Positions 14,583 to 39,269 of a stretch of 42,420 nucleotides of DNA are shown here, in pieces (position 1 is the stretch's first letter; each line of letters starts with the position of its first letter). The DNA lies in NCBI GenBank assembly GCA_027296055.1, contig JAPUJT010000045.1:1-42420 (forward strand), read 5' to 3'. Position numbers and translations under genes: made by a program. Under the pieces are notes generated by a model. That model saw nothing but the letters and a program-made list of their open reading frames with translations. It had not been told where the DNA came from and searched no databases. The stretch comes from Planctomycetota bacterium (GTDB lineage: Bacteria; Planctomycetota; JAPUJT01).

Positions 14583-14990
14583 TGGAGTGCGCCGGGTGGT
14601 CGCCGGCTCGCCGACGCCCTCGGGCGGAGGCGAGCGGGAGGAAAGTCCGAACTCCATAGGACAGGGTGGTGGGTAACGCCCACCGTCCGTGAGGGCCGGG
14701 AAAGTGCCACAGAAAACATACCGCCCCTTCGGGGGTAAGGGTGAAAAGGTGCGGTAAGAGCGCACCGCTCGGCCCGTGAGGGTCGAGGCATGGTAAACCC
14801 CACCCGGAGAAAGGCCAAATAGAGGGGGATCGGGAGAAATCTCGTGCGGGGCGGTCCGTCCCGCCATGACCCCTGGGTAGGCTGCTGGAGCTCCCTCGCA
14901 AGGCGGAGCCTAGACGAATGGCCACCGAACGGGCCGGAGGGATCTCCCGCCGGTCCGGGAACAGGATTCGGCTTACAGGCGCGCTCCCGC
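14583..14990 (+). ncRNA. rnpB: RNase P RNA (type A)
   Basis: The catalytic RNA of RNase P, which removes 5' leaders from tRNA precursors. Conserved elements: GAGGAAAGTCCGAACTCC (CR-I area, near 14638), ACAGAAAACATACCG, the AAGGGTGAAAAGGTGCGGTAAGAG block, GGCATGGTAAACCCC, and the 3' ACAGGATTCGGCTTAC with the CR-V sequence. The terminal helix P1 pairs GGAGTGCGCC (14584-14593) with GGCGCGCTCC (14978-14987) through one G-T wobble. The ORFs called across this region on both strands are spurious. Confidence 0.96.
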
Positions 14991-15018
14991 AGCCCGGCCG
15001 CTTTTTGTGGCCGGGCTG
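14990..15018 (+). terminator. Strong hairpin after rnpB
   Basis: A ten-base perfect stem, CAGCCCGGCC (14990-14999) with GGCCGGGCTG (15009-15018). The T-run is in the loop rather than after the stem, so it may act as a 3'-end stabilising or processing structure rather than a canonical intrinsic terminator. Confidence 0.5.
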
Positions 15019-21269: not shown

Positions 21270-23945
21270 GTGTTTCGCGACTTTGGCTGGAAATTCTGGG
21301 TGATCGGTCTCGTCGTGGCGGTGATCATCGGCATACCGGTGATCGCGGGCAACTGGGTCCAGCTCGGACTCGATCTGCAGGGCGGGACGATGCTGACGTA
21401 CGGCCTCGATACGGAGACGGCCTCCGAGTTCGACGTCGTCCTGCAGGTCCTCCGGAAGCGGCTGAACACCCTGGGCCTCCGTCAACTCCTGATCCGCAGG
21501 GAGGGGACGGGCCATTTCGTCGTCCAGGTGCCCGGTGTGGACGACACGGCGATCGCGCGGATCAAGCACCTGATCGAGACGAGCGGACAGCTCTGGTTCA
21601 AGATCGAAGCGGTCCGTCAGGAGGCGCCGGAGATCAGAAAGATCTTCGAATGGAAGCAGAGGGACGAGTACGAGGAGGACTACAAGTACGACATCGGCTT
21701 GAAGGTAAACAAGGAGGGAGATCCTCTCCCCGCAGAGGACTGGAATTCCTACTCCCTGCTGATCAACAAGGGAGCGGTCGAGGGACGCCTCCTGAGTGGG
21801 GCCAACCCCACCACGGATGATTTCGGGGCCGACTCCGTCGGGTTCCAGTTCAACGCCGAGGGGGCCCGCGCCTTCGGCAAGCTCACCGAGGAGAACAAGG
21901 GTAAGAATCTCGCCATCGTCCTGGACGGGGTCGTTGTATCGGCTCCCTTGGTCAAGGACACCATCACCTCCTCGGGGATCATCACCGGGAGTTACACCCG
22001 GGACGAAGTAAACGACCTGGTCATCATCCTCCAGGGCGGCAGCCTTCCCAGCACACCCACGCCCGAGAGTGACCTGACGATCGGCCCGGGCCTCGGTCGG
22101 GACTCGATCGAGAGGGGGAAGCTCGCCACCTGGATCAGCCTCGCACTCGTCATCGGGTTCATCCTCGTCTACTACCGGGGCGCCGGCGTCGTCGCCTGCA
22201 TCACGCTCCTCCTCAACCTCGCCCTGCTCGTCTGCGTGTTGATCAACTTCGAGGCGACCCTGACGCTGCCCGGCATCGCCGGGATCGTGCTGACGGTCGG
22301 GATGGCGATCGACGCCAACATCCTGATCTTCGAACGCATCCGGGAAGAAAAGAACAAGGGGATGGGGATCCGTCAGGCGATCGAAAACGGTTACGGCCGG
22401 GCCTTCTGGACGATCTTCGACGCCAACCTGACAACCCTGATCACCGCCCTGATCCTTTTTCAGGTGGGGACGGGGCCGATCAAGGGGTTCGCTGTCACGC
22501 TCTCGATCGGGATCCTCACGAGCATGTTCAGCGCCCTCTTCGTGACGAAGGCTCTCTTCGGGTTGCTCGTCGTGAAGGGGTGGATCACCGAGTTCAAGAT
22601 CATGAGCCTGGTCGGCGAACCGAACATCCAGTTCGGTCGCTACGGGAGGCTCCCCCTGATCGTCTCTCTCGCGCTGATCCTGGGGGGGATGGCAGTATTC
22701 GCCGCGAGGGGTCAGGACAAGTACGGGATCGAGTTTACCGGGGGCGCCCTTTTTCAGATCAAGCTGAAGGAACCGGTGAGCGACGCCGAGGTCCGGCGCA
22801 GGCTGAACAAGGCCGGCGGGGAGTTCGTGAACGCGGAGGTTCAGGCCGTGGGCTTCCGACAGGGCGCCGTGGCGGAGCCGAGCAATGGTGGTGGGAATGA
22901 GAATCAGAGAGCCCTGCCGGGCGAGGAAGGGTATGAGTACCAGATCCGGGTTCGCTTGGTTCAGGAGGGGAAGGACGTCGATACCAATGTCCTGAAGTCA
23001 AGGGTGGACGACGCCTTCAAGGATGTTCTCGCTCCGGACACCTACCCTCCGCTTCCCCCCAGGGACGCCGTCCAGATGGATCCGAGCGAGCCGGGGTGGG
23101 GTAAGCTGGCTCTGGTCGTCCGGCTCGACCCGCGCATGGTCGAGATGCCGGACCTGGAGAAGCTCGCCGCCGATCTCATCGCCGACGGCTTCGAGGGTGC
23201 CGAGGTAGAGCCCTGGGAGGATGACTCGGGAGTCCTGGCGATCAAGGTCACGACGGGACTGCTCGACCTGGCCACGGAGAAGAAGAAAAATGACAAGAGG
23301 GATCTGCTGAGGAAGTTCTTCAATCAGTCGGTCGACTACCCGATCTCGGAGCCGTACTCGCGTGTGATCGACATCGGGAAATCGGTCGCCTATAACCTGA
23401 AGAGCAAGGCGATCCTGGCGATGATATTCGCCGTGTTCGCGATCGTGCTCTACATCACCTTCCGGTTCGAATTCAAGTTCGGCATCGCGGCGATCACCGC
23501 TCTCGTGCATGACGTCCTCTTCTCCATGGGGGCCGTGGCGGCGATAGATGCCAGCGGCCTCATGGACGTCAAGATCGACCTGGCGATGGTGACCGCCTTC
23601 CTCACGATCATCGGATATTCCCTCAATGACACGATCGTCGTCTTCGATCGCATTCGAGAAAACCTCGGAGGCCGGGAGAAGCTGGAGTACGCGGAGCTGG
23701 TCAACCGCAGCATCAACCAGACTCTCAGCCGTACTGTCCTCACGTCCATCACCACGTTCGTCGCCCTCCTCGCTCTCTTTCTGGCCGGGGTCAACGTGAT
23801 CCGGGACTTCTCCTTCGCCATGATGATCGGGGTCGTCGTCGGGACCTACTCCTCGATATTCATCGCCAGCCCCGTCCTGATCTTCCTCCGGAACAGGGAG
23901 GTGGCGGCGGAGGAGAGGGAGAAAGCCCAGGGCGCCAAGAGCTGA
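21270..23945 (+). CDS. secDF: SecD-SecF fusion protein translocase subunit
   Basis: An 891-residue proton-driven RND-type factor that pulls preproteins out on the periplasmic face. The SecD half (residues 1 to about 450) has TM1, GLDLQGGTMLTYGLD, a large periplasmic domain and the TM2-6 bundle with GIVLTVGMAIDANILIFERI. The SecF half starts near GRLPLIVSLALILGG, continues with YGIEFTGGALFQIKL and ends with the IIGYSLNDTIVVFDRIRENL bundle. The periplasmic loop of the SecF half is unusually long (about 200 residues, with a Gly/Asn/Glu-rich stretch). The start is GTG 21270 behind AGAGGAG. A natural fusion is known in some phyla and absent in E. coli. Confidence 0.95.
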   Translation: MFRDFGWKFWVIGLVVAVIIGIPVIAGNWVQLGLDLQGGTMLTYGLDTETASEFDVVLQVLRKRLNTLGLRQLLIRREGTGHFVVQVPGVDDTAIARIKHLIETSGQLWFKIEAVRQEAPEIRKIFEWKQRDEYEEDYKYDIGLKVNKEGDPLPAEDWNSYSLLINKGAVEGRLLSGANPTTDDFGADSVGFQFNAEGARAFGKLTEENKGKNLAIVLDGVVVSAPLVKDTITSSGIITGSYTRDEVNDLVIILQGGSLPSTPTPESDLTIGPGLGRDSIERGKLATWISLALVIGFILVYYRGAGVVACITLLLNLALLVCVLINFEATLTLPGIAGIVLTVGMAIDANILIFERIREEKNKGMGIRQAIENGYGRAFWTIFDANLTTLITALILFQVGTGPIKGFAVTLSIGILTSMFSALFVTKALFGLLVVKGWITEFKIMSLVGEPNIQFGRYGRLPLIVSLALILGGMAVFAARGQDKYGIEFTGGALFQIKLKEPVSDAEVRRRLNKAGGEFVNAEVQAVGFRQGAVAEPSNGGGNENQRALPGEEGYEYQIRVRLVQEGKDVDTNVLKSRVDDAFKDVLAPDTYPPLPPRDAVQMDPSEPGWGKLALVVRLDPRMVEMPDLEKLAADLIADGFEGAEVEPWEDDSGVLAIKVTTGLLDLATEKKKNDKRDLLRKFFNQSVDYPISEPYSRVIDIGKSVAYNLKSKAILAMIFAVFAIVLYITFRFEFKFGIAAITALVHDVLFSMGAVAAIDASGLMDVKIDLAMVTAFLTIIGYSLNDTIVVFDRIRENLGGREKLEYAELVNRSINQTLSRTVLTSITTFVALLALFLAGVNVIRDFSFAMMIGVVVGTYSSIFIASPVLIFLRNREVAAEEREKAQGAKS

Positions 23946-24046: not shown

Positions 24047-24070
24047 AAAAAGGGGACAGTCACCTTTTTT
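24047..24070. terminator. Palindromic repeat copy 2 / terminator after secDF
   Basis: AAAAAGG-G-GAC-A-GTC-A-CCTTTTTT forms a hairpin with one G-A mismatch and ends in six T, so it should act as an intrinsic terminator for secDF. It is related to the element at 14544-14564. Confidence 0.6.
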
Positions 24071-24089
24071 GTCGAGGGAGGTACGCGAG

Positions 24090-25070
24090 ATGAAGGGCCT
24101 GAAGTTCAGCATCGCACTCATGATGATCGCTGCCATTGGTTGTTCCAGAAGCGGCGGAAGCCATCGCGGAGGTGCCGTCGCGGGGAGCATCCTGGATGTG
24201 CAGCCCTCCGTGGGGACGGTCGCTGGTGGCACCTCGGTCCTCATCACGACCCAGGGACTGGCCGACTTCCAGTTGATGGCTCCCACGGTCACCTTCGACG
24301 GGAATGCGGCGACGTTCGTCCAGGCCCCAGCGGCAGATATGGTCGAGGTCCTCACCCCGACGGCCTCAGGGACGGGATGGGTAGACGTCGTTGTCACCGA
24401 GGGCGCGGTCTCTGCCACCCGCCCGATGGGTTTCGAGTATGTCACCGTGCCGCCTCCGCTTCCGTGCACGTTCGGCTCGGCCTGTCCCGATCGCGGCCTC
24501 CTGGCGGGCGGCGAGATCGTGATGATCTTGGGGGTGGATTTCGAGAACCTCCCCCGTGTCTTCTTCGACGGCGTCGAATCCCCGAACGTCCAGTTCGTAT
24601 CCACGACGGAGATCACGGCCGAGGCCCCGGGAGCCGCCGCGGCCGGCCTGGTGGACATCCAGGTAGATAATCCGTCGGGAGGGATCTGCGTCGGCACGGC
24701 GGCCTACGAGTATCTCGCGTCGAGCCCCATCATGGACAACCAGGAGCCGAACGACACGTTGATCTCCTGTTTCGCGGGGGTCCCGACGACGCTGGGCGTG
24801 TTTTACGACGGCACGTTCCACACGGGGACGGATGAGGATTGGTACTGCTTCACCGCCCTCGGGGGTCCCAGGGTTGTGACCATGAATCCGGACCCGATCA
24901 CCGATCCCAATTACGACCTCGAGTTATACGACGCGAGCGGCGCGCTCATCATGGGTTCCTACAGCGTGTTCGGCCAGGAGATGCTCACGACCCCGGGGGG
25001 GGGGACATTCTCGGTCAGGGTGATCAACCGATGTGGTGAGGTGGGCGAGTACACGATCTCGTTCGGCTAG
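24090..25070 (+). CDS. Lipoprotein with TIG and PPC-type domains (first of tandem pair)
   Basis: A 326-residue lipoprotein (lipobox AAIGC, Cys18; then a SGGSHRGG linker). Two IPT/TIG-like Ig domains follow: ILDVQPSVGTVAGGTSVLIT to GFEYVTV, and a second from LAGGEIVMILGVDFEN. The C-terminal domain resembles bacterial pre-peptidase C-terminal (PPC) domains: QEPNDTLISCF, TGTDEDWYCF, DLELYDASGALI and VRVINRCGEVGEYTISFG. Such proteins are surface-exposed adhesin- or stalk-like modules; no catalytic domain is present. ATG 24090 follows GAGGGAGGT. The first 130 residues are nearly the same as those of the next gene. Confidence 0.75.
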   Translation: MKGLKFSIALMMIAAIGCSRSGGSHRGGAVAGSILDVQPSVGTVAGGTSVLITTQGLADFQLMAPTVTFDGNAATFVQAPAADMVEVLTPTASGTGWVDVVVTEGAVSATRPMGFEYVTVPPPLPCTFGSACPDRGLLAGGEIVMILGVDFENLPRVFFDGVESPNVQFVSTTEITAEAPGAAAAGLVDIQVDNPSGGICVGTAAYEYLASSPIMDNQEPNDTLISCFAGVPTTLGVFYDGTFHTGTDEDWYCFTALGGPRVVTMNPDPITDPNYDLELYDASGALIMGSYSVFGQEMLTTPGGGTFSVRVINRCGEVGEYTISFG

Positions 25071-25094
25071 TCGGAGTAACAGGAGGGCAGCGAG

Positions 25095-26069
25095 ATGAAG
25101 TGGCTGAGGTTTGGCCTCGTGACCGTCTTGATGGCCACACTGGCATGTTCCGGAAGCGGCGGTAGCCATCGAGGTGGTACGGTCGTGGCGGACATTCTGG
25201 ACGTGCAGCCCTCCGATGGGCCGGTCGCCGGCGGCACGTCGGTCCTCATCACGACGCAGGGCTTCACAGACTTTCAGTCCATGGTTCCCACGGTCACCTT
25301 CGACGGGAATGTGGCGACGTTTGTCCAGGCCCCCGCGGCCGACCAGATCGAGGTCATCACGCCCGTGGCCGCCGGGTCGGGCTTCGTCGGCGTCGTGGTC
25401 ACCCAGGGAGCCGTCTCCGCCACCCGCCCGATGGGCTTCGAGTACACTGCCGTCTCATGCAGCATCACGTCGATTTGTCCGAGCGGGGGTGGACTTGCGG
25501 GGGGGGAGATCGCCACGATTCTCGGCGCCAACTTCGTTGCCGGGATGCGAGTCTTCTTCTCCATGGAGTCGCCGCAGGTCACGTTCGTCTCCCCGAACGA
25601 GATCTGGGCGGAGGTCACTCCATCAATCTCTGTAGGTCTCATCGACGTTTCAATCACCGACCCCTCGAGCGTTTGTGTCTTCCTCAACGGCTGGGAATAC
25701 AAGGTATTCCTGCAGTCTCCCGACAGCTTCGAGCCGAACGACACGCTGGCCACCTGCTTCTCGGTCGGCTCCATCACGACCGGGTGGTCGGCGACCGGCC
25801 TCACGATTCACGACGCCATCGATGAAGACTACTTCTGCTACAATACTCTCCTGGTTCCGGCCCTCCCGACCGTCACGATGACCCCCGATCCCAACTCCGG
25901 CAACCTGGACATCGAGCTGTTCGATGCGGCGACCGGGACGTTCCTGGCCGGCTCCTACCAGCCGTCGGGCCCGGAGTCGATTGCCACGCCGCCGGGAGCG
26001 ACCGACTACGCCGTCCGCGTCTTTGGCGATTGCGGCGCCGTCGGCACCTACTCTCTGAACATTCAATAA
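25095..26069 (+). CDS. Lipoprotein with TIG and PPC-type domains (second of tandem pair)
   Basis: A 324-residue tandem paralogue with the same order: lipobox ATLAC (Cys18), SGGSHRGG, two TIG-like domains and a PPC-like domain (EPNDTLATCFSVG, DEDYFCYNTL, DIELFDAATGTFL). The N-terminal TIG domain is almost unchanged between copies, while the second TIG and PPC domains have diverged. That pattern fits a duplication with constraint or gene conversion on the N-terminal part. It starts 24 bases after the first copy, behind AGGAGG. Function unknown; surface display is inferred. Confidence 0.75.
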   Translation: MKWLRFGLVTVLMATLACSGSGGSHRGGTVVADILDVQPSDGPVAGGTSVLITTQGFTDFQSMVPTVTFDGNVATFVQAPAADQIEVITPVAAGSGFVGVVVTQGAVSATRPMGFEYTAVSCSITSICPSGGGLAGGEIATILGANFVAGMRVFFSMESPQVTFVSPNEIWAEVTPSISVGLIDVSITDPSSVCVFLNGWEYKVFLQSPDSFEPNDTLATCFSVGSITTGWSATGLTIHDAIDEDYFCYNTLLVPALPTVTMTPDPNSGNLDIELFDAATGTFLAGSYQPSGPESIATPPGATDYAVRVFGDCGAVGTYSLNIQ

Positions 26070-37047: not shown

Positions 37048-38958
37048 CTAATCCTCGTCGTCGTCATCGGGTGGATTTTCTTTCAAGATGCTGAGGTCGA
37101 TTTCATCGCCGAACGGATCGTCGAGGCGGATGACCTTGCCGAGGCCGCGGAGGGCGACGCGCTTCCAGCCGACCTGAGCGCGTTCGTGACGATCCCAGGT
37201 CCAGCGAATGATCTCGCCGCGGGCCTGGGCGCGAGTGCCCTGAGGTGGATCGACTTTCGCCCGCTCGACGGCGAGGGGATCGGTGATGCGTGTGGCGAGG
37301 CGGTTACGCTCTATCTCCCGGAAATAGCCGCCGGCGGGCGCGATCTGGTGGTACTTCAGGTCGGCCATCTTGACGGTGTAGTAAAGATTCCGGAAACGGG
37401 TGTAAGTATCTTCTCCCTCCTCTTCTCTCTCGAGAGCGGCCTGGACACGACGGCGGGATGGCTCGGGTAGGTCCGCCAGATTCTCGGGCAGCGCTCCGTC
37501 CGTTTCCAGCCGGATCTCCTCCAGGAGTCGTCCCCACACGACGAACTCGGACCAGTTGCTCTCCTCGAGGACGAGCCGATCCAGGATCCTCTTCTTGATC
37601 ACCCAGTCGAGCTCGCGCTCCAGACCCATAGGGTTGTTGTCCACTCCGCGGAGGATCGTCCCCCATAGATCCAGCAACCGGCCAGTTTCTTCCGGGACCT
37701 CCTCCTCGGCCAGCGAGGCCCGGACCCCATCGAGGTACCGCTTCTGGATCTGCAGGGCCGAGAGGCTCTCCCCTCGGGTCGTCTCGAGCCTGCCGGCGTG
37801 GCCCGCGCGGTTGACCTCCCGGAGGGCCTTCATCGGCGATCGCAAGACGAGATCGGGGAAGGTGTGTCCTCGCTCGATCGCATCGATGATCAGGGCGGTG
37901 GTGCCGATCTTGAGGTACTGCGCCACCTCTGCCATGTTCGAGTCGGAGAAGAGGATGTGCAGTCTCTTGTGCTCCCGGAAGGCGGAGAACGGCTCGAAGA
38001 CGAACTGCTTGATGTCGAACATCGGCTTGTTGGCGTCGTCCCAGTAGACCTTCATCACCTTCCGGATGAACGGGGCGCGCTGGGAGATCCGATAGCCCGT
38101 CTCCGATCCTGTGGGGGAAGCGTCGCCGGACCCGGTGAAGATCAGTCGAGAGATCAGATGGGCGGTGAGATGCTTCTTGTACTTCTGGAGGACGAGCCGG
38201 GAGAGGTAGGCCGAGTAAAAAGTGATCGCGGGATAGAGCCCGAACTTCAAGACCAGGCCGGTCGCCTTGGCGAGGTGATCGTCACGAAGACCGGCGAGAT
38301 ACTGTCCGACCGCTCGGAAGGGCCGGTCGAGGAGATGAAAGACCGGGCCGATGACGGGAAGCGTTGCTCCCGTACGCAGCAGAAAATGCACCGAGCCGTA
38401 GACGATGGCGGAGATGAACAACACAAAGAGAAGGACGATGACCGATAGGACGAACGGAGAGACGAGGAAGATCGATGTGAACGCAAGTCCCAGGGCAAGG
38501 ATGATCCGCGTGATCGGTCCGGGACGATCCTCCACCAGGTAGTTCTCGTGTGTGCCGTAGGAGTTGCCGAAGGCATCGGCGCTGTTCTTGCCGATCAGAA
38601 CCTTTCCGAACCATCCCTCTGCCTGAAGATGTTTCTCGGCGACTCGCGCGGCCGCCTGGAGGATCTCGTCGATCGCCCTCTGGTAGGTCATGAGATCGAG
38701 AGGTGTTCGGCACTCCGGCGTCGCCGCCTCGACGAGCCCGTGACTGAAAGCGTCGGCGTGCGCTTCATAATGAATGAAGGCGCTGTTGGAGAGGAAACGC
38801 CCCTCCTTGCGGTAGAGGGCCTCGAGAGTGATGTGCGTCCCCTCGAGGGCTCGGATCAGGGCATCGTAGATCTTGCGGGGAGTCGGTCGGAGGGAGCCTT
38901 CCTCAGGCCGGAATAGGAGGGCGTATTCGGTCTCGAGCCCGAGTATCCGCCGGCGCAT
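37048..38958 (-). CDS. Pup ligase/depupylase-family (PafA/Dop-like) enzyme with membrane insertion
   Basis: A 636-residue member of the PafA/Dop carboxylate-amine ligase family, which ligates or removes Pup using a glutamine-synthetase-like fold. In order: MRRRILGLETEY (1-12), EAATPEC (77-83), KNSADAFGNSYGTHENY (124-140), FTGSG (274-278), ISQRAPF (291-297), SDSNMAEVAQYLKIGTTAL (338-356), TRAQARGE (575-582) and DDPFG (613-617). Several blocks (TGSG, ISQR, LKIGTTALIID) look more Dop-like than PafA-like. Between HENYLV and FTGSG lies an extra segment of about 110 residues with a very hydrophobic hairpin (152-194). The catalytic Asp appears as Glu65 (HYEAH). A second insertion is near 466-527 and the C-terminus is acidic (DDDDED). 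ATG 38958 gives the family N-terminus; GTG 38967 is the alternative. Neither has a ribosome site. Confidence 0.92.
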   Translation of the reverse strand: MRRRILGLETEYALLFRPEEGSLRPTPRKIYDALIRALEGTHITLEALYRKEGRFLSNSAFIHYEAHADAFSHGLVEAATPECRTPLDLMTYQRAIDEILQAAARVAEKHLQAEGWFGKVLIGKNSADAFGNSYGTHENYLVEDRPGPITRIILALGLAFTSIFLVSPFVLSVIVLLFVLFISAIVYGSVHFLLRTGATLPVIGPVFHLLDRPFRAVGQYLAGLRDDHLAKATGLVLKFGLYPAITFYSAYLSRLVLQKYKKHLTAHLISRLIFTGSGDASPTGSETGYRISQRAPFIRKVMKVYWDDANKPMFDIKQFVFEPFSAFREHKRLHILFSDSNMAEVAQYLKIGTTALIIDAIERGHTFPDLVLRSPMKALREVNRAGHAGRLETTRGESLSALQIQKRYLDGVRASLAEEEVPEETGRLLDLWGTILRGVDNNPMGLERELDWVIKKRILDRLVLEESNWSEFVVWGRLLEEIRLETDGALPENLADLPEPSRRRVQAALEREEEGEDTYTRFRNLYYTVKMADLKYHQIAPAGGYFREIERNRLATRITDPLAVERAKVDPPQGTRAQARGEIIRWTWDRHERAQVGWKRVALRGLGKVIRLDDPFGDEIDLSILKENPPDDDDED

Positions 38959-38974
38959 TCGCCACACTGATAAA

Positions 38975-39017
38975 GACTTAATAAAAAAGAGAGGTGGAAG
39001 AAGATTTCTTCCACCTC
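38975..39017 (-). terminator. Intrinsic terminator between pup-like gene and Dop/PafA-like gene
   Basis: On the minus strand, a perfect 12-base stem (arms 38991-39002 and 39006-39017, GAGGTGGAAGAA paired with TTCTTCCACCTC) with a three-base loop is followed at once by TCTTTTTTATT. The T-run lies only on this strand's downstream side. It starts 34 bases after the pup-like stop codon and ends just before the Dop/PafA-like start, so only read-through reaches the enzyme gene unless an unseen promoter exists. Confidence 0.85.
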
Positions 39018-39050
39018 CCCATGATAATCATCTTCCGAGAGGAACGAGGG

Positions 39051-39188
39051 CTATTCGCCGCCTCGGGGGACTTTCCAGCCCTCGACATACTCTGCAGGCC
39101 GCTTACGGAGATCGGCGAGGATCGCCTGCTTGATCTCCTGGTCCTTCTCTCGCGTGCGAGGCCTGGTTTTCTGACGGATCCTCAACAT
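39051..39188 (-). CDS. Pup-like small protein modifier
   Basis: A 45-residue protein, too short for a normal gene caller in this frame, but well supported. The ATG at 39188 is preceded by GGAGGT at an ideal distance, a promoter with a perfect -10 lies 53 bases ahead, and a terminator follows. The C-terminus AEYVEGWKVPRGGE resembles the Pup tail (Mycobacterium AEDFVRAYVQKGGQ): a hydrophobic helix, a basic residue, then Gly-Gly and Glu. A terminal Glu would need no deamidation before ligation. It is shorter than Pup (about 64 residues) and basic (13 Lys/Arg against 7 Asp/Glu), whereas Pup is acidic. Its next gene is a Pup ligase/depupylase homologue. Role as a conjugated modifier is inferred from both facts. 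Confidence 0.85.
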   Translation of the reverse strand: MLRIRQKTRPRTREKDQEIKQAILADLRKRPAEYVEGWKVPRGGE

Positions 39189-39197
39189 GAGGGACCT
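39179..39197 (-). promoter_or_regulatory. Ribosome-binding site fixing the start of the Pup-like gene
   Basis: Minus-strand AGGAGGT lies five bases before the ATG at 39188. It rules out the longer reading frame from 39557, which runs inside the glycosyltransferase gene in a different frame. Confidence 0.8.
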
Positions 39198-39240
39198 CCT
39201 GCCTTTGTGTGCGGGGTCATCTCGGTGCTGCCACCATCCA

Positions 39241-39269
39241 ATTATAGGTAACCCAGGCAATGTCTGCAA
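39241..39269 (-). promoter_or_regulatory. Promoter for the Pup-like gene
   Basis: Minus strand: TTGCAG (39269-39264), a 17-base spacer and a perfect TATAAT (39246-39241). It lies in the gap after the glycosyltransferase stop. Predicted leader of about 45 bases. The -35 is half-matched. Confidence 0.6.

Follow-up and report, generated by a model that had tools for sequence, protein, structure and literature searches.

A 45-residue Pup-like modifier and a Pup-ligase homologue with a hydrophobic insertion form a candidate membrane-anchored tagging pair in a Planctomycetota genome

Pupylation is known through the proteasome, and Pup itself is an acidic protein of about 60-70 residues with a coiled-coil middle. 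Here we describe a 45-codon Pup-like open reading frame (ORF) beside the gene of a Pup-ligase homologue in a contig of a Planctomycetota bacterium (GCA_027296055.1, JAPUJT010000045.1), analysed over its whole stretch of 42,420 nucleotides (the window). The ORF and its neighbour are confirmed as real, and the pair is probably a tagging system anchored in the membrane, whose ligase would join the terminal Glu of the modifier to an amine; a lysine on a membrane-associated protein is the most probable acceptor. Conjugation, acceptor and topology are what we infer from the sequences. A sequence-only reading of the window had proposed a short Pup-like modifier next to a Pup-ligase homologue, and both genes were found as described, the ORF at 39188-39051 and the adjacent ligase gene matching Pup_ligase PF03136 with an E-value of 2e-88.

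The modifier begins with MLRIRQ and ends with YVEGWKVPRGGE; the complete 45-residue protein reads MLRIRQKTRPRTREKDQEIKQAILADLRKRPAEYVEGWKVPRGGE, with the C-terminal tail AEYVEGWKVPRGGE. Its net charge, counted as (K+R)-(D+E), is +6. An alternative in-frame ORF of 168 amino acids (aa) overlaps the upstream gene, which encodes a glycosyltransferase-9 protein. The ATG at 39188 was preferred because five database homologues, 71-93% identical to the window modifier, are all exactly 45 aa long. Modifier and ligase ORFs lie on the minus strand, 83 nt apart. The ligation-ready C-terminal Glu, the near-ideal ribosome site and the terminator that had been read from the sequence were all recovered: Glu45 is encoded, AGGAGG precedes the ATG by 6 nt and a strong hairpin lies at 39020-38988 between the two genes (z -4.2 for a 101-nt fold, with none of 200 shuffles equally stable). 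Such terminator-like sites were found in the modifier-ligase gaps of 3 of the 21 loci tested (the window and two of 20 others) and not in the remaining 18; three further loci yielded no modifier-ligase pair. A promoter of its own, also claimed for the modifier, is only plausible: TATAAT at 39246-39241 is preceded at a spacing of 17 nt by the -35 candidate TTGCAG, which matches at 3/6 positions by eye, and a promoter scanner detected none upstream of the modifier.

A profile search for the modifier recovered 33 small relatives. In the alignment of 34 modifiers, Asp26, Gly44 and Glu45 are invariant, the C-terminus is the best conserved part and the N-terminal part is not conserved across the family. 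The seed sequences of this profile all ended in Glu, whereas a scan of the ORFs upstream of ligase genes assumed no particular ending. The scan covered ORFs of at least 30 codons at 27 ligase loci, each having 150 nt or more of upstream DNA (L025 and L043 had too little and were excluded); these loci include close kin, some from one genus and two pairs from one genome. ORFs with a stop no more than 200 nt upstream of the ligase ended in GE at 19 of the 27 loci and in AE at three (22/27 in total), and within 450 nt a GE- or AE-ending ORF was present at 25/27, showing that related ligases keep this ORF, with its G[GA]E-like tail, beside them. The best unrelated C-terminal dipeptide reached three loci within 200 nt and seven within 450 nt, and a GQ-ending ORF occurred at none of the 27. 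GE and AE ends upstream of the ligase are thus more frequent than expected by chance. The ratio of nonsynonymous to synonymous substitution rates (dN/dS) was 0.12-0.44 in 7/7 pairs among eight chosen loci over 29-48 codons, the pairs overlapping and six of them spanning the last 29-30 codons only. A ratio well below 1, which the sequence-only reading had named as a check, therefore stands for relatives, and the pairs do not cover the window's own close kin. The positive charge noted in that reading holds for the window modifier, but it is not a family trait. Among 40 modifiers, 21 are positive, four are neutral and 15 are negative, with a range of -5 to +7 when P0014 and P0019, which carry apparent upstream extensions, are left aside; a basic charge is seen in close kin of the window modifier and in some other members. 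Searching the whole genome of the window with the modifier profile returned the window ORF as the sole significant match (E 1.5e-13, the profile including the window sequence). The same search of 20 genomes gave 11 places with E < 0.01, ten of them adjoining a ligase, and nine genomes with none. In genome G129 (L051 at G129:C24, and L014/L034), the modifier gene stands apart from its ligase gene, which suggests that both genes act in trans. At L023 and L026, two loci of one genus, the upstream ORF ending in TPGGGE contains a hydrophobic stretch, its start codon being uncertain, and the modifier there is perhaps itself membrane-anchored.

The window modifier resembles actinobacterial Pup in its C-terminal GG[EQ] tail, ahead of which lie a helix and an aromatic-Val pair. 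Its structure model has a helix at residues 10-29, a short helix at 31-35 and a loose tail (predicted local distance difference test score 74). Unlike Pup, the modifier is 45 aa long and carries a charge of +6, with these two predicted helices only. We compared the tails of 12 modifiers with those of six canonical Pups, with a single deletion allowed and the three C-terminal residues locked in register. The comparison scored 26.1 against 6.3 (standard deviation 1.9) for shuffles, none of 500 scoring as high, an excess that is overstated because the compared rows are mutually related. An aromatic residue lies at position -11 in 38 of 40 modifiers (P0026 has it at -12 and the L020 protein lacks one) and at -10 in the canonical Pups compared, so that the modifier tail is one residue longer. 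We read the modifier and Pup as remotely akin through this tail.

The ligase scores 233.6 bits against the PafA equivalog model TIGR03686 and 201.5 bits against the Dop model TIGR03688, below their cut-offs of 551.3 and 492.3, and its AlphaFold2 model has the predicted PafA/Dop fold. Its insertion of about 113 residues is hydrophobic and nearly all-helical. To place the ligase, a tree of 62 rows was built without the insertion columns (34 rows with an insertion, 14 labelled PafA, one canonical Dop and 13 from tandem UBact-type or related loci); it is unrooted, and 14 rows were flagged for odd composition. The 34 insertion ligases form one clade, apart from PafA and Dop, with branch support of 100/100. 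The insertion measures 87-125 residues in 34/34 clade rows and 0-10 in the other 28. Every clade row has at least one hydrophobic 19-mer inside it (two in the window ligase, one to four across the clade), and 33/34 have none outside it. The clade also differs at column 68, which is Glu in 33/33 of its rows and Asp in 14/14 PafA and 10/10 UBact-type rows with a residue there, the canonical Dop row being a fragment without this column. Among 36 columns at least 90% conserved in both the clade and PafA, only column 68 differs. The rows displayed align gap-free from F58 to E68, and the Asp of this column, counted in the alignment, is residue 64 of PafA 4b0t, which we take to be the conserved catalytic loop Asp. 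In the parts of the sources available, a review gives a conserved loop Asp as the proposed catalytic base of PafA and Dop (PMC3511204), activation of water is ascribed to Dop D94 (PMC8599861), and catalytic-Asp terms had no match in the text of PMC10465538. As judged from the alignment, the insertion and the Glu at the catalytic-Asp column distinguish this branch from other Pup ligases; neither feature is mentioned in the sequence-only reading. A partial ligase, P0044, is 95% identical to that of the window. The C-terminus of the window ligase is acidic (DDDDED, 37048-37068, minus strand), set against a basic modifier; it is less acidic in P0042 and P0043.

In the simplest mechanism, which we propose here, the ligase would use ATP to phosphorylate the side chain of Glu45. 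The phosphate would then be displaced by an amine, probably that of a lysine in a membrane-associated protein, so that the chemistry of PafA would take place at the membrane. Removal of the tag, if any, may fall to the same enzyme, since M. tuberculosis PafA possesses depupylase activity according to the available part of PMC5358908. The insertion would anchor the ligase with its catalytic face towards the cytoplasm, and Glu68 would assume the role of the catalytic Asp. Because the modifier ends in an encoded Glu, a deamidase would be unnecessary. The hairpin between the genes would give more modifier than ligase. The tag would then change the activity or location of its target rather than deliver it to a 20S proteasome.

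Two loci of the window ligase's clade bear the names Roseimaritima (L043) and Pirellula (L046), presumably kin of Rhodopirellula. In Rhodopirellula and Plesiocystis, ligases whose membrane insertion follows core strand 4 were reported by Iyer, Burroughs and Aravind (2008; PMC2588565), who noted no proteasome linkage and proposed that membrane proteins are tagged. The present pair is of the kind they predicted: the membrane-type insertion directly follows core strand 4 on its C-terminal side, the ligase gene has a small Pup gene as its neighbour and no proteasome genes are linked. The descriptions may differ in that the 2008 ligases are reported to have four transmembrane segments and a linked membrane-protein gene, whereas the window ligase has about two strong hydrophobic stretches and no such gene is conserved across lineages (26 stretches, Rhodopirellula not among them). 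The Pups of 2008 had 50-90 residues as against 45 here, and the main text of that paper is silent on the Asp-to-Glu change. What we add to the prediction is the Asp-to-Glu swap, a two-gene minimum with a strong terminator between the genes, and minimal modifiers that all end in Glu and have a tail one residue longer. The swap, the all-Glu ends and the tail register were not found in the literature covered (the main text of the 2008 paper and passages elsewhere), and no experiment on the membrane-insert branch was found among the open-licence papers listed, as judged from titles and abstract openings.

The pair differs from the actinobacterial Pup-proteasome system in that the window's assembly has a single Pup_ligase locus and lacks both a 20S pair and an ARC over threshold, and in that its modifier is basic, of 45 aa and longer in the tail, and its ligase has Glu68 and a hydrophobic insertion. 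Tandem loci of PafA and Dop relatives (L004-L007, L030 and L031), which we take to be UBact-type, share the Pup_ligase fold and a short modifier ending in G[EQ]. Unlike the window, they have two tandem Pup_ligase genes and, in 6/8 such genomes, an adjoining ARC-like ATPase; their ligases lack the insertion (0-10 aa) and keep Asp at the catalytic column, and the last modifier residue is sometimes Gln. The remark that UBact tails end in RSGE- or RTGE-like sequences holds in part: the tails at tandem or related loci end in GGQ (L004, L005), GGE (L006), LPGE (L030), TSGE (L031) and RSGQ (L029).

To define the spread of the branch, we examined a phylum sample of 294 genomes. Pup_ligase was present in 32, of which 24 were assigned to the membrane-insert type, 22 by the insertion at the locus and two (G163 and G190) by fragments only. 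Relatives also occur in metagenome-assembled genomes named Thermoanaerobaculia, Oligoflexales and Acidobacteria, with modifiers ending in VPGGGE, VVEGGE and VPEGGE. Genome G036 has two membrane-type ligase/modifier pairs together with a tandem UBact-type locus that includes an ARC-like gene (L060, L061 and G036:C217), and these co-resident systems may serve different targets. The assembly containing the window (5.26 Mb, 91.7% complete, 5.6% contamination) holds one Pup_ligase locus and no second (Dop) paralogue locus. In this genome, ARC/Mpa gave no PF16450 match, and TIGR03689 gave 13 matches, all below cut-off, those listed covering the AAA core. There was no TIGR03690 match and no 20S pair, and the sole PF00227 match adjoins HslU (HslV and HslU were read by eye), consistent with the earlier suggestion that the modifier may not address its substrates to a proteasome. 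A survey of 38 genomes comprised the 24 Planctomycetota of membrane-insert type, eight with other Pup_ligase genes, five picked by name and one actinobacterial control. TIGR03690 and TIGR03689 exceeded their cut-offs in the control only; below these cut-offs, seven more genomes had a TIGR03690 match and all had TIGR03689 matches, the latter over the common AAA core. ARC-like matches that span most of the model adjoin the tandem loci of G013, G016, G049, G036 and G019, with a shorter one in G265 and none beside those of G050 and G191. PF00227 had at most one match in each of the 24 membrane-insert-type genomes and none in ten; among the five picked by name, G295 has two partial matches.

Several observations weigh against a membrane-anchored tagging system. 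The support for it is wholly computed, and no conjugate has been seen. At E <= 10 the window modifier had no match in Pfam or NCBIfam, and the Pfam Pup model PF05639 matched 0/34 modifiers at this threshold, although HMMER filters discard most weak matches; a canonical Pup used as control matched at 6e-16. With hhalign, a ten-row Pup alignment was matched at E 8e-4 over the same columns with a one-residue gap, yet with a probability of only 24%, and against three UBact-type modifiers combined with one Pup the probability was 2.9%. A sequence search of the Protein Data Bank (PDB) with the modifier profile returned chance-level matches only and no Pup. Membership of Pup by profile was rejected on these searches. 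The tails of one family (L020, L023, L024 and L026) lack the usual aromatic-Val pair, and other tails deviate (DGE at L012, HGE at L022, EGE at L046 and VGE at L068). No modifier was found in 17 kb at L018 (listed with L052), in a genome that is 66% complete, and that of L014 is unlinked, on another contig of G129. In the ligase model, DSSP assigns residues 151-200 to a single unbroken helix rather than a hairpin, and one or two hydrophobic 19-mers also occur in 4/28 rows without the insertion. The absences in the window's genome are provisional because of its completeness and contamination. PF00227 is also absent from 5/8 genomes with other Pup_ligase genes, and its absence was therefore dropped as a mark of the membrane-insert type. 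Finally, the Z score places the ligase model marginally closer to Dop than to PafA, and Planctomycetes homologues, in the part of a 2020 study available (PMC7947786), align partially with the Dop-loop and are 29-31% identical to both PafA and Dop.

These last points would favour a ligase that acts mainly as a Dop-like hydrolase or amidase, its substrate being the modifier or conjugates formed by a different ligase, a reading that we nevertheless consider unlikely. The window's genome has no second Pup_ligase locus for making conjugates, the lack of GQ ends at the 27 loci would leave a deamidase without substrate, and the tree does not put the clade on the Dop side. His540 is common to 14/14 PafA rows where the canonical Dop row has Ser, yet His is also found in 2/4 UBact Dop-side rows. 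It also seems improbable that the modifier is joined to the amine of a membrane lipid, or to a polyamine or another small amine, instead of a protein lysine, by analogy with Atg8 lipidation or with gamma-glutamyl-polyamine synthesis on a peptide. The insertion soon after the HENY strand and the clade-wide Asp-to-Glu change at the position credited with activating the attacking nucleophile are consistent with such an acceptor. However, nothing points directly to a site for a lipid or a small amine, and lysine chemistry inherited from PafA is the simplest assumption. In a bolder version, which we regard as quite doubtful, the pair would be a third branch of pupylation, of two genes and free of deamidase and proteasome, in which the Asp-to-Glu change admits the head-group amine of a membrane lipid and a 45-residue Pup is lipidated in the manner of Atg8. 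Nor do we think it likely that the pair feeds a non-20S protease recognising the tag, such as HslUV or FtsH. HslVU is present in the window's genome and a membrane ligase would fit a membrane protease, but PF00227 is missing from the ten membrane-insert-type genomes mentioned, many of the type being incomplete, and conservation of the modifier across the family does not extend to its N-terminal part. That the 45-codon ORF is the leader peptide of a transcription attenuator, as the strong terminator before the ligase might suggest, is highly improbable and was rejected: conservation is at the protein level and strongest C-terminally, with dN/dS below 0.5 in relatives, an unlinked modifier copy exists in G129 and 18/21 tested gaps lack a terminator.

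The branch keeps tag and ligase without a 20S pair or ARC over threshold in the genomes searched and, in that of the window, without a second enzyme. If the pair is a membrane-anchored tagging system, it would reveal the role of a Pup-type tag that does not mark proteins for degradation. Candidatus Uabimicrobium amorphum (P0018), a planctomycete reported to engulf other cells, is a member with a 45-aa modifier and is the named organism at hand within the branch. The branch may be close to the condition that preceded the split of PafA and Dop, since the 2020 study, in the part available, took single-copy Planctomycetes homologues as outgroup (PMC7947786).

Table 1. Positions of the modifier and ligase genes and of associated features in the window
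Feature	Position	Strand	Remarks
45-aa Pup-like modifier gene	39051..39188	-	stop included; ORF call, 45-aa homologues, modifier alignment
Ribosome binding site AGGAGG	39195..39200	-	6 nt before ATG; read directly
Possible promoter TTGCAG-17 nt-TATAAT	39241..39269	-	read by eye; weak -35
Intrinsic-terminator-like hairpin between modifier and ligase	38988..39020	-	15 pairs, then T-run
Membrane-type Pup-ligase homologue, 639 aa from GTG	37048..38967	-	ATG alternative 38958
Hydrophobic helical insertion, residues 149-261	38185..38523	-	soon after HENY motif
Codon of Glu68, at column of PafA catalytic Asp	38764..38766	-	alignment

The surroundings of the pair were also examined for further components. 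A conserved third gene was rejected, none being shared across lineages among ORFs of at least 110 aa in 26 stretches including the window; judged from coordinates, the other shared ORFs overlap the ligase on the opposite strand or belong to a few loci of one family. A defence system was likewise rejected, PADLOC giving the ligase one chance-level match (Cmr5, E 0.027) and the modifier none, as was plasmid carriage, for which there were only weak matches to two actinobacterial records. Elsewhere on the plus strand, the window contains a complete bacterial RNase P class A RNA at 14584-14991 (Rfam RF00010, 274 bits), an ORF of 891 aa at 21270-23945 that by eye resembles a SecD-SecF fusion, and, at 24069-26069, two tandem secreted-looking paralogues of about 330 aa each, also similar by eye.
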